From Sphaerolaimus hirsutus (lineage: Eukaryota; Nematoda; Chromadorea; Monhysterida; Sphaerolaimidae), in the NCBI GenBank assembly GCA_964036195.1, contig OZ038459.1, forward strand, positions 1,237,206-1,301,205: 64,000 nucleotides of DNA, written 5' to 3'. The position numbers were made by a program, and so were the translations under genes. This document shows, one piece after another, positions 52,801 to 58,800 of this stretch. Position 1 is the stretch's first letter. Each line of letters starts with the position of its first letter. The notes under the pieces were generated by a model, which did no database searches, was not told where the DNA came from, and was given only the letters and a program-made list of their open reading frames with translations.

Positions 52801-55800
52801 TTGACACTTTTCATGCCAACAATTTTGTGCGGAATGGATCAAAGGCTGAATGCGATCGGATTAAGCGTACGTTTAGCATAGATCATTCCCGTTTTTTGTT
52901 ACATCATTCAAAGTTTACATCAGAATAGATAGTTGACAGTGGTGAATTCAGACTTTTACAGAAATACATTTTATAAATACATCTACAAAATTTTTGACGT
53001 AAGTGGATATGTAAAAAAAAACATTTGAAGAGTGAGAATTAAAATTGCATGTAAAAAACGACATAAACTTGTTCTTATCATAAACACCTTCCCGGTCAAG
53101 TTAGCCACCCATTTTTTTTATTTCACTTCGAAGCTATATCTCGGGCTATGGTGAGGTTATAGAGCTGAAACTTTGTCATCAAAGCAGGGCACATCAAATA
53201 TTGCCACACATCGCTGATCAAAATCATCAAAATTCTACCGGTCACAAGTATTTACACACACCAATTAAAGCCACCACACCCAATCTGAGCAATAATCCCG
53301 AGTGAGTCCAGAGTTAATCCCATGGCACTCAACCTTTGATACATTCCGCCGCGACCCCGACTTGAGTTCATCATCAAGGCGGGGTCAATGCCTAAAAACC
53401 TTCCCAAGCGCAAGCGGGCAGCGTGCCAAGCCGGACGGAAAGTAGAATCTAGCTCGGTAAATATAAAAGAAAATATGATACACTCACCATTTGACAAATT
53501 TGTGTGAAATTTTACAGGACCTTAAACAACTTTCATCTCATATCATGCCATTTTACAGAGTGCGGGACTGCCCTCAGCCAGCAGCGCTGATCCAGCAACT
53601 CAGCTGGGGCTGGTAAAAAAGCATTTTAGCATAGTCACTTGATTTTTCAAAAATTATTTGAAAAAGAACATAAAAAATGACCCCCCAAAAACCTCAATCA
53701 CCAAACCCCCCCCCCCCCCTACAAACAAAGATGGCCGCTGCAATACAAAGCATGGGGCGGCAGCGCCGCAGCGACGACCATTGTCCCAGTGACCCTGGTC
53801 GCATTCACATGGACCGCGGGCGAATGTGGCGCCCAACTGCACCTTATCTGGCACCGGCGGCGGCAACGGATGGCATTTTGCAACCCCACCGTGTTCTGGT
53901 GCCACTCCTAGATCCTGTGAAATGTCCTGTAAAATGTAAAATGTCACGCAAAGTGTCTGAAGTCAGTGTAAAATTCTGGGGAAAAGGGCAAACAGGCATG
54001 GTCAACGCTTGCTCTTTTCCAGGACATTTTACATGAACTTAGACACTTTGCATGATAGTTGACATTTTACAGGTTATTTCACTTTTTTTAGACAATTTGC
54101 CTGAAATTTGACATTTTCCACGGCATTTTACATGGTCTGGGATTGGCCCTGGACCAACACCTACTACGTGTACTTCGTGGGGCGCTTTGCGTTCATGGGC
54201 ACCGCCTTAGTGACGCTCTACGTGGCGATACTGCGCGCCAGCGTGAACGCGTCGCACGCGCCAAATAACCACTCGTATATAGTGAGGCAGGTGCGTCAAT
54301 TTGCGTGGTAATGCAAACTAGTTGACGGTAGGGTTCAAACGGGATTGACTTTTCGGTATCGGGATCGGGATTGATTTTTTTAGATTTCGGGATCGGGATC
54401 GGGATTGGCCGGGATTGGGGTCACGGGATCGGGATCGGGATTGGCATTTTTTCGGGATCGGGATTGGGGTCTTGGGATAGAGATTTTGGCCAATGTTTTG
54501 GCATCCACAGAGGTTCATAAAGGTCTAAAAACACTGTTGGATGCCAGAAACGTGGCATAAAATGAACGCTGGGGGTTTGCGTTCACATTTTTTGCATGCA
54601 AAAACGTCGTTTTTTTCACTTTTGATAATTCCCACTAATTTTTCCGGGATCGGGATCCCGGACTTTGGAGTTTCTCGGGATCGGGATCGGGATTTGAAAA
54701 GTTTCGGGATCTTGATCGGGACTGCTAAATCCCGGAATTTCACGGGATCCGGGATCGGGATCCCATTTGAACCCTAGTTGACGGGTAGAATTCTGGAAAC
54801 TGGTAAATTTGTTTTAAACGCATTTGACTTTTGCCGGGCTGTTTTTCCACCATTTTCAGTATCCGTCAACAGCATGTCGGCTTAGTGTTCGGTACAGTGC
54901 ATGCGGTGGGGTGAATTTTCAATGTTGCCGTAAACGGTAGGGTAAACGGTAGCAAAAATGGTCGGAAATAGGCAAATGCAGATAATGCGGCACCATACAG
55001 TAAACGCGGCCACCCTACTGAAAATAGCACACAGCATAAACATTAATAATATGAAGCGTCGGTCAGCGTTCGCTGCGCCATTTCGCTTTTGAACGAGTTT
55101 TCAAATTGGTACCATGAAAACTAGCTCGTGCCCGGGCCACAAACTACAAAACAATCACTCAACGCAGCGGCGCCTTACGCGGGTGGTAACCACAACCCTA
55201 GCGCCCTACATCGCCCTATGGGTGGTGCCGTTCGCGGCGGCCGTGGCCACCAGGTAGGGTTGGCACTTGATTTTTTCAAACTTTTTTTTTGATTTTTTTT
55301 TAATCAAAGGGTGGAAACTGATTTTAATTTTAAAAAAATCAAAAGGCACAATTCCTTGTAGACTTGCACTAGGTATTTTGCATTTTTTGCGCGCAAGCGC
55401 GCAATTTCTCATACATGTTACCATTGGTGTTTTCATGGGTTTTGGGGCATTTTTAGTGTAAAATCTTCCATTTATTCATGATAGCATGTAATAAAAAGCC
55501 GTGATATGCTAGTGTAGTAAAAAATATCAAACCAATGTGCTCCCACATACTTCTACAGTGTGCAACATCACTGTCAATGTATTAGCCTTCTCTTACAACC
55601 TTATGTAAGCACCATTCTATGCTGAACTTCAATTGAAGTCACGAATGTTCGACAAAAGGCGATATATGTAATAAGTCGACGTAAAATGGATATTTTTGAA
55701 AGAAATCACTGCTTATAATGCTATCCCATGACTCCACAGTCATAATATGACCACAATAGACATAACAATACATTATCTGACACTTAACATACACATATTT

Positions 55801-58800
55801 TTTCTCTATACCTCCATTTTGGGCGATTTAAAAAAAAAATCTGATTTTAATTTTAAAAAATCAATTTTTTTCCAACCCTACCACCAGGCACATGTTCGAC
55901 GTGCCCACTGGCGTGCAGATGGCCGTCGGCTGCATGATCGGCCTGGGCTCGCTGTGCAACGCCGCCTGCAACCTGTTCATCTACGCGTGGCGGTCGCCGC
56001 CCTTCCGCGCCATGCTGCGCCTACTGCTGCTGCCCGGCGAGGCGAGGCGGCGGCGCGCCCAGCTGGTCACCATCCCGGAGTCTGTGAAAGACCCTGGGAA
56101 GTGTAGAAGACCCTGGAAAATGGCACGCGTCGCGAACAAATGACTGTTAAGTGCCATGTGTATCCAAATCTTATTGTATCGGATCCAAATCAGGGACGTA
56201 TCCAGGATTTTTGAGCGGGGGGGGCTGCTTGTTTACGGGGGCCGGCGAACGGAGGGGGCTCAGCTCAAAATTTTTAAGAAACATCGATAAATATATGGGA
56301 AAAGTTGCATTGTCCGGGACTTTTCAGGTCTCACCCCGGGAAGGGGGAGGGGGCTGCAGCCTCCCCCCCCCCCTGGATACGTCCTTGATCTAAATCTTGT
56401 ATCTTATGTAAATCTTATGTTTTTGTATTCAAATCTTATTCCCAAAAGTAAGATTTGGATACAAAGGACATAAGATTTGGATACGACACAATAAGATTTA
56501 GATACACCTGACATTTTACAGGGTCTTTCACATGACACATGACATTTTACAGGGACTTTTACACTTGACAGGGTCTTTTACAGGGTGTGGGACTGCGCCC
56601 AGGTGGAAGTGGGGCACCGACTGGCCACCGCCGGCCGTACGGGCGCTCGCTTGGGCGGCCGGCACTCGTACTTGACCAGGCTGATGCGGCAGGTGTACAG
56701 GTGCGCTCAGTGGGCCAAATTGGGAATGGATGAAATGGACAACGCTAAGTTCCAAATAAGTGATCAAGTTATAAAAGCTTGGCTTGGATGTCAGAATGTT
56801 CCTAAGAAATTTTATTCATTGAATAAAATACAATTGAGGCGTCCTATTCTAAAAGTCCAAAATATCAAAATATCGAGTTAGGCCCGGAAACGTCATCCGC
56901 ACATTTTTCATTATTTTACATAATTTTTTTGAACTCACATGCAGTGTTTTTGTGCGGGGGGGGCGGATTGTATACGTGGCCCGGCGAACGGGGGGGCGGC
57001 ACCCCTCCCCCTAAAATTTGGTCCCTATCATAGCAGTATTGAGGTATGGCGCTGGCGCCATTTGTAGGCGCCGCGATGGCGTGATTGGCGTTGGCGCTGG
57101 CGCTAATTCGAAAAAGCTGTATTTTACAAAGCTATGTTTCTGGTGGAAGAAAAAGTATAAAAAAATCATTTTCACTTTTTTTAATCGATGCTTTTTTAAA
57201 CGACGCTTTTTAAAGGACACGTAAAAAAAATATACTCAAAGAGTTTTCGTGTTCACGTCCACGCTTGCGTTTGAAAAAAAAGTTTAAAAAAACTGCCAAA
57301 GACCTCCGGACATCCCTACACGTAACAATTACACAAATATTTCCCCTTCAATTCCGCCTCTGACCACACAGACGACGGCCGAGAGAAACGGAAATACTCA
57401 TTCCGTGCGTGCGGGCGCCGCAAAAGCCGCCCTACTTCGTGCAGTGCGTAGTGTTCAGCTACAGCGACCGGCCGCGCGGCAACAATTGCGTACAGGTGCC
57501 AATTCCGCAAAAAGTGCAGTGGAAGGGAAGTAGAAACGGAAGTGAAATAGTTTTTTTTGGATGAGGTAACATTTTCAACTCTAAAGTTCTGACGCAAGCG
57601 AAAAGTCGACATGTTTCCCACTAAATCCCAATTGCCGTTATCAGAAACAATGCTGTCTAAGTCAGAATTCATTCTTTACGTTTTTTTATTAATATTACTA
57701 GTTTCACTTCCCCAATGGCGCACCGCACACTGAAATTTAGGTTCAGCGTTCGAACGTTTTTGCACGCTGAACTACAAACGCTGAAATCAATATCTAAAGA
57801 ACACAACATTTTTGAAGCGTAAAAAATTCTACTCGCATGTGAATTGCGCGAAATATTCAAATTCCGAAATTTTTACGCTTCAAAAACGTTGCGTTCTTTA
57901 GATTTTGATTTCAGCGTTTGTAGTTCAGTGTGCAAAAACGTTCGAACGCTGAACGCAAAATTTCAGTGTGCGGTGCGTAGGTTGGCCGATGTTTTTTTTA
58001 AAAAACATCGAGTTAAAAAAAACGTTTTTTTCCAACCCTAGCGGTGCGCCATTCACTTCACGTTTCACTGCACTTGTTGCGGACTTGGCCCAGGGCTTGC
58101 ACGGGCGCAAGTTGAGCGAGCCCACGGACCCCCGACTGCCGCCCCACAGCCAGCACAATGGCGACGTCACAACGCCGCTAGCTGACTCAATCATGGCGGC
58201 AGAAAATGGCGGCCGCGTTGAACTGGCGCCAGGTGGAGCCAGCTGGCACCAGCGGCAAGTGACGCTCGCAGTTGGCGCGAGGCCAAACGGCAACACGTGG
58301 CACGACTGCATCAAGGGGCGGGCGCGCCGCGGCGACAACTTGGACCTGGGCCAAGGTGTGCTGTGCGCCGGCGGACTGGATATTTGGCGCCGCCGCGCCA
58401 CCGTCGTTTGCATACACCAAGAGCGCAACGCATTGATCATTGCGTGATGGTGATTGAGCCAATATTTAAGCATATATTTAGTGTTATAATGGTCAGGAAT
58501 TGTACATAAATATGTATAGATAAATAAATGTGAATATGTAAATATGTAAATAAATGTAAATAAATACTCGAAACGCAATCGGTGCTATGATGAAAATAAC
58601 GCGCGCATATTTATAGGTGACAAGAGTTGCCATTTTGCTGAGCATTTTACATGACTTTTGACAGTTTGCATGACATTTGACATTTTACAGGGCATTTTAC
58701 AGGGTCTGGGACTGCCCCCAGAGCAATCAACTGACGCGCGAAACGCCATAGGGACAGAGTGCAACGCACATAGATCGAGATTCAAACTGATATTGGCATC

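Follow-up and report, generated by a model that had tools for sequence, protein, structure and literature searches.

A hAT-like miniature inverted-repeat transposable element forms a precise predicted intron in a receptor gene of the nematode Sphaerolaimus hirsutus

Introduction

Can a DNA transposon that lands in a coding exon become an intron in a single step, its own ends and its target duplication supplying the splice sites? The question is raised by a rhodopsin-type receptor gene in a 64,000-nucleotide stretch of the genome of the nematode Sphaerolaimus hirsutus (GenBank assembly GCA_964036195.1, contig OZ038459.1, positions 1,237,206 to 1,301,205, forward strand); the whole stretch is referred to below as the window, and positions are counted from its first letter. 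Between the exons encoding the sixth and seventh transmembrane helices (TM6 and TM7) the gene is interrupted by a hAT-like miniature inverted-repeat transposable element (MITE), and it is likely that this element landed in a coding exon of the receptor, its ends and the duplication forming a new intron in one step. The birth of introns from transposons is known already; the locus described here is one well-formed hAT-type case.

The element and the predicted splice junctions

The features at the interruption are as follows (here and below, a slash within a motif marks an exon–intron border).

55255..55880, plus strand: hAT-like MITE of 626 bp, ends and length read directly
55255..55263, plus strand: left terminal inverted repeat, TAGGGTTGG, giving the TAGGG of the predicted donor GTAGGG
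55872..55880, minus strand: right terminal inverted repeat, CCAACCCTA on the plus strand, which with the preceding T run makes the pyrimidine tract
55247..55254, plus strand: target duplication copy 1, CCACCAGG; CCACCAG are the final coding bases of exon 5 and G opens the predicted donor
55881..55888, plus strand: target duplication copy 2, CCACCAGG, providing the entire predicted acceptor CCACCAG/G
55254..55887, plus strand: proposed intron 5 of 634 bp, GTAGGG...CCACCAG, on whose removal the frame is restored

The initial annotation had described a layout of CCACCAGG, element and CCACCAGG at 55247..55888, and direct reading found it exact: the MITE starts with TAGGGTTGGCACTTG and finishes with TTTTTTTCCAACCCTA, its 9-bp inverted ends match exactly, and the 8-bp copies at its two borders are identical. 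The donor at the junction reads CACCAG/GTAGGGTT and the acceptor AAATCAATTTTTTTCCAACCCTACCACCAG/GCACATG. Joining AG/GTAGGG to CCACCAG/G takes out the MITE together with one copy of the duplication and restores the receptor frame between TM6 and TM7, as had been claimed from the start; the joined frame is stop-free and a protein family match runs across the junction. A retained MITE would add one arginine codon (AGG) followed by an in-frame TAG, the first three bases of the element. All the features of a U2-type intron, i.e., a GT donor, a pyrimidine tract, an AG acceptor and a kept frame, can be read in the sequence, and the element borders coincide with or come close to the two predicted splice sites, as in introners.

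The 634-bp intron is made up of the MITE and one copy of the duplication without any remainder, which argues that the insertion was not into an older intron. That the MITE entered an intron already present at this position is highly improbable, as the sequence following the second copy is coding and holds no donor, even if two other elements, the TAGGGTTCAAA element at 54329-54776 and, by reading, the family copy at locus L133, do occupy older introns.

The receptor itself was assembled from six exons.

51542..51767, plus strand: exon 1, donor CCG/GTTGGT
52256..52439, plus strand: exon 2, acceptor TTACAG/, donor CAG/GTAATT
53731..53899, plus strand: exon 3, acceptor AAAG/, 3' border not placed
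54153..54290, plus strand: exon 4, 5' border not placed, donor CAG/GTGCGT
55168..55253, plus strand: exon 5, TM6 and the loop after it, acceptor CGCAG
55888..56140, plus strand: exon 6, TM7, helix 8 and the C-terminus, its final part entering another inverted repeat

Joined, and with a second repeat at 53900-54148 and one CTGG omitted too, the exons give 999 nt without a stop. The encoded protein, submitted to Pfam with 8 additional residues at the junction of exons 3 and 4 in the second extracellular loop (ECL2), gives two matches over the cut-off, one to 7TM_GPCR_Srsx across residues 84-320 (E = 1e-13) and one to 7tm_1 across residues 43-274 (E = 1.2e-9); the MITE junction, at about residue 276, is crossed by the Srsx match only. 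Comparison with the Protein Data Bank (PDB) gave weak matches only, to the adenosine A2A receptor (best E = 0.028). The C-terminal codons of the receptor run into a 133-bp inverted repeat (74%) at 56059-56606.

The following course of events can be proposed. A non-autonomous hAT-type element would have entered the coding exon at CCACCAGG, duplicating these 8 bases. The duplicated G and the TAGGG of the element would then have formed the donor CAG/GTAGGG, the second CCACCAG would have become the acceptor and the T-rich right end of the element the pyrimidine tract, so that the spliceosome could remove the element with one copy of the duplication and leave the coding sequence unchanged. Elsewhere, the same TAGGG end would most likely serve as a donor where copies hit the CAG/GT ends of existing exons, and insertions inside exons would be rare, presumably since most others get lost.

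The MITE family in the window and in the genome

Allowing up to one mismatch, the window holds 23 occurrences of the terminal sequence TAGGGTTGG, compared with a mean of 11.9 and a maximum of 21 in shuffled sequences (none of 100 shuffles reached 23). Three further family copies with paired ends carry a target duplication, and an element of another family lies in intron 4 of the receptor.

22323..23030, plus strand: family copy, duplication ATACTGGT, exact
42324..42962, minus strand: family copy, duplication GTTTGAGC and GTTGGAGC, 7 of 8 bases identical
47222..47926, minus strand: family copy, duplication CATATACA, exact
54329..54776, plus strand: MITE of another family, TAGGGTTCAAA...TTTGAACCCTA, in intron 4, with the 8-bp GTTGACGG at 54321-54328 and 54777-54784

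A fourth pair of TAGGGTTGG ends in the window, at 24675-26781, lacks the 8-bp duplication, and a more diverged family copy, which begins with TAGGGATGG, lies at 28371-29010.

The genome searched comprised 348 Mb in 762 contigs. Apart from the receptor MITE, 39 near-full-length copies at 90-94% identity were found, two further matches being partial (40 of the 4694 first-look candidates were scored). Among 23 other close copies, taken as distinct loci with four double-listed ones counted once, 18 carry an 8-bp duplication, which is exact in 14 and otherwise differs by no more than one mismatch, and the remaining five were not resolved; L021 and L033, both among the 18, have a duplication in common and are perhaps not independent cases. 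Target duplications of 8 bp are produced by hAT elements. With its short inverted ends, 8-bp duplication, many copies and lack of coding capacity (the longest listed plus-strand open stretch starting inside the receptor MITE has 67 codons, 55258-55458), the element can be considered a hAT-type MITE, and this part of the initial annotation fits the sequence tests. The hAT dimerisation domain has 28 matches in the genome, and at the one of these 28 that was inspected no TAGGGTTGG pair was seen.

Copies at exon ends of other genes

Copies that start exactly at the 3' end of an exon are present in two conserved genes, PTPA and Dcc1, and probably in two more. The PTPA exon at locus L123 (Pfam E = 2.4e-13, over the cut-off; best E = 9.1e-7 against PTPA entries in the PDB) and the Dcc1 exon at L080 (Pfam E = 2.7e-5, over the cut-off) both end exactly at the CAG/GTAGGG of a family copy. 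At each locus the MITE is inserted exactly between CAGG and the T of the exon donor, its own end rebuilding GTAGGG, and the old donors, CAG/GTATAC at L123 and CAG/GTGTTT at L080, now lie on the second copy of the duplication, moved by 0.6-0.7 kb. PTPA was found at a single locus in the genome, with its next exon 4.4 kb downstream. Two exons that end likewise at GTAGGG are a PRELI-like one at L083 (E = 9.7e-5, below the Pfam cut-off; PDB E = 7.6e-4) and a glutamate-receptor-like one at L087 (E = 3.7e-5, below the Pfam cut-off; PDB E = 0.0026). Retention of the element would bring a stop after 13 codons at L123, 9 at L080, 1 at L083 and 42 at L087. Because the PTPA and Dcc1 copies stand at the 3' end of the exon, GTAGGG must be the donor there if those genes work. 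The TAGGG end most likely acts as a splice donor in living genes, as far as can be judged from these positions.

Search for further introns made by the family

The sequence CAGGTAGGGTTGG, which identifies CAGG-type insertions, has 106 matches in the genome and its reversed control none. The 100 listed places, comprising the window copy plus 99 further loci, were examined, with upstream flanks of about 250 bases at 69 loci and 1.5 kb at 30. A complete copy, in which the right end is present and the duplication shows no more than one mismatch, was found at 63 of the 100, and in 48 of these the duplication is exact; the other 37 were dropped, the right end of some perhaps lying outside the fetched stretch. 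With the receptor's copy left aside, 62 complete copies remain; translations of 17 flanks, belonging to 15 of these loci, were submitted to Pfam and the rest were judged by eye for open frames. Only one of the 63, the receptor's, is flanked to left and right by recognised coding sequence and involves no older intron. The TAGG group gave 102 matches, against 16 for its reversed control, and none of the 20 upstream flanks fetched from it was clearly coding. These counts concern sites ending in CAGG and TAGG.

The suggestion in the initial annotation that the family acts as an intron generator was not borne out by these counts, and it is quite unlikely that the family is a true introner that makes introns genome-wide, the receptor's being one of many. 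The size of the family would suit such a role, as would the TAGGG present at both ends, which allows GTAGGG to arise from either orientation, and the exon ends, at least two and probably four, that seem to use this donor. Yet the many similar introns expected of an introner were not seen at the CAGG sites or in the 20 TAGG flanks, within the reach of short flanks and of Pfam at 15 of the 62 other loci. A wider scheme can be entertained only tentatively: through the TAGGG end and the 8-bp duplication the whole superfamily may be splice-silent at any AG/G site, providing an intron within exons, a donor at exon ends and an acceptor at exon starts, which would make it an introner of low rate, with the three outcomes found next to one another and landings at splice borders the commoner result.

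Several loci were considered and set aside. At L133 kinase exons flank the copy, but by reading the copy lies in an older intron with the donor AAC/GTGCGT upstream. The frame is open up to the MITE at L075 and L068, neither of which has a family match, and the zinc-finger matches at L067 are weak and below the cut-off. Several other joined frames of 130-181 codons, e.g., at L043, L057, L071, L081 and L124, did not look like genes; Pfam gave nothing convincing for L043 and L124, and for L057, L071 and L081 the assessment was by eye alone.

In 33 of 62 CAGG-type copies a T comes directly after the duplication, and the duplications have G first in 31 of 62 and T second in 31 of 62. Exon donors may explain part of the T excess.

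Is the receptor intron in use?

The insertion site is of a rare kind. It had been proposed that any site ending in G on the coding strand would make a ready GTAGGG donor; the rule is too loose, since the second copy of the duplication must supply the acceptor AG and the site must therefore end in AGG. A position ending in CAGG or TAGG occurs only twice among the 1001 of the joined coding exons, and one ending in AGG five times. The 18 duplications resolved in close copies include one with an AGG end on both sides and another with it on a single side, so these copies show no visible preference for AGG sites. A surviving exon insertion at an AGG site is the outcome expected of selection for splicing; as a single case it is suggestive and no proof.

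A number of observations weigh against a working intron. The 7tm_1 match ends shortly before the MITE junction. Of the 7997 candidates scored in the protein search, none qualified as a relative of the receptor at E 0.001, and in the genome only the window locus matched, with no paralog or allele free of the MITE; with neither a homolog nor a second locus, no empty site was seen. Among the exon-end copies, one of the four matched stretches of PTPA contains a TGA, the Dcc1 exon has no match in the PDB, and the L087 copy has two mismatches in its right end and one in its duplication. For the acceptor just two parallels were seen, both weak: at L085 and L093 the second CAG is immediately followed by an open frame. 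Pfam gave no match for either, and the PDB none for L085. Of the initial proposal that the element's end gives the donor and its duplication the acceptor, the first half is thus backed by the exon-end copies and the second has weak parallels; for the receptor intron, as predicted, support for the donor is good and for the acceptor fair to weak.

The gene also carries a second repeat.

53900..54148, plus strand: unrelated repeat of 249 bp in the receptor coding region (ECL2), with relatives across the genome

Near end-to-end relatives of this repeat at 72-77% are present in the genome. Its excision with one CTGG keeps the frame, but the acceptor would be TG; by reading, no AG is seen from the in-frame TGA at 54102-54104 up to the codons of TM5, and no frame-keeping AG acceptor was found for the repeat. 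Lacking an AG near TM5, the gene would have no canonical splicing there, and the receptor as assembled may be a pseudogene; it may also have suffered damage, rely on an unusual splice site or contain a sequence error. The CTGG at both ends was at one point taken for a target duplication and then dropped, as three relatives, compared by eye, suggest that it forms part of the ends of the repeat itself; if so, the repeat is without a clear target duplication. Its ends resemble CAGGTGCCAGTCCCAGACCCTGTAAAATG. Three relatives were read, and two of them, L136 and L138, carry TTTTACAG close to the right end, with an AG that the window copy, with TTTTACAT, does not have.

It is conceivable, though in our judgment unlikely, that the MITE sits in an exon of a receptor that was already dead or was killed by it, the perfect junctions being coincidental and unused. 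The second repeat without a usable AG acceptor and the failure to find a homolog or a second locus both fit a dead gene. Coincidence would, on the other hand, have had to pick one of only 2 (CAGG or TAGG) to 5 (AGG) suitable sites in 1001 coding positions, the remainder of the receptor frame is open, and PTPA and Dcc1 need the same donor if they work. The receptor MITE differs by 4.7% from the majority sequence of the 23 close copies, the other copies by 3.4-7.4%. For a receptor dead since the insertion, at 4.7%, the simulated probability that 999 nt would have stayed open is 0.23 with substitutions alone and 0.002 with an assumed one indel per 8 substitutions, values that depend on the assumed rates and on the omission of the 53900-54148 repeat. 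This argues that the receptor was alive during part of the time since the MITE inserted, an age argument that pseudogene status would also weaken. An insertion into a coding exon that yielded a splicing-competent intron at once remains the likely course.

Relation to known systems

Introners are known from algae and other eukaryotes, and were reportedly described by Huff et al. in 2016. The maize hAT element Ds is said to have acted as an intron, in reports by Dennis in 1988, Wessler in 1991 and Giroux in 1994, and its splicing was reportedly demonstrated on RNA of mutant alleles. Ds shares with the receptor MITE the hAT superfamily and an exon insertion that is spliced out, here by prediction; it differs in that Ds is known from the RNA of mutant alleles, whereas the insertion described here is known from a genome assembly and its junction looks precise.

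The survey by Gozashti et al. (2022; PMC9860276) detected introners in no more than two groups of animals. Like the receptor MITE, the introners described there are non-autonomous DNA transposons with inverted repeats and a target duplication, with splice sites drawn partly or wholly from the duplication and transcript length unchanged; unlike it, their families were called from groups of similar introns, against one predicted intron among 63 complete copies here. In the AGGT model, as outlined in a review (PMC3443670), a transposon insertion yields an intron whose two splice sites both come from a duplicated AGGT. The duplication with splice signals, which lets the insert leave with the coding sequence unchanged, is common to both; in the receptor, however, the duplication gives AG/G and the T of the donor is the first base of the element. 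A report on Drosophila Doc1053 (PMC3296678), which also mentions transposon-born introns in Oikopleura, describes a retrotransposon-born intron that added five amino acids. That too is an animal intron gained via a transposon insertion with target duplications, but the element of the receptor is a DNA element and the protein would stay unchanged. Literature searches recognised no publication on the TAGGGTTGG MITE family, which is no proof of absence.

The precise hAT-MITE intron predicted here, together with the family copies at the PTPA and Dcc1 exon ends, provides a natural test case for the way in which the end of a transposon turns into a splice site, and for how frequently insertions into exons survive.

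Other features of the window

Rfam gave no match in the window at the gathering threshold. A Pao-type retrotransposon with long open frames occupies 30552-37832 and 37603-40269, both on the minus strand, and one of its open frames matches the Monjiviricetes fusion glycoprotein family (E = 3.6e-10). Exons that by eye resemble an ABCC4-type transporter lie at 58900-62450 on the minus strand.

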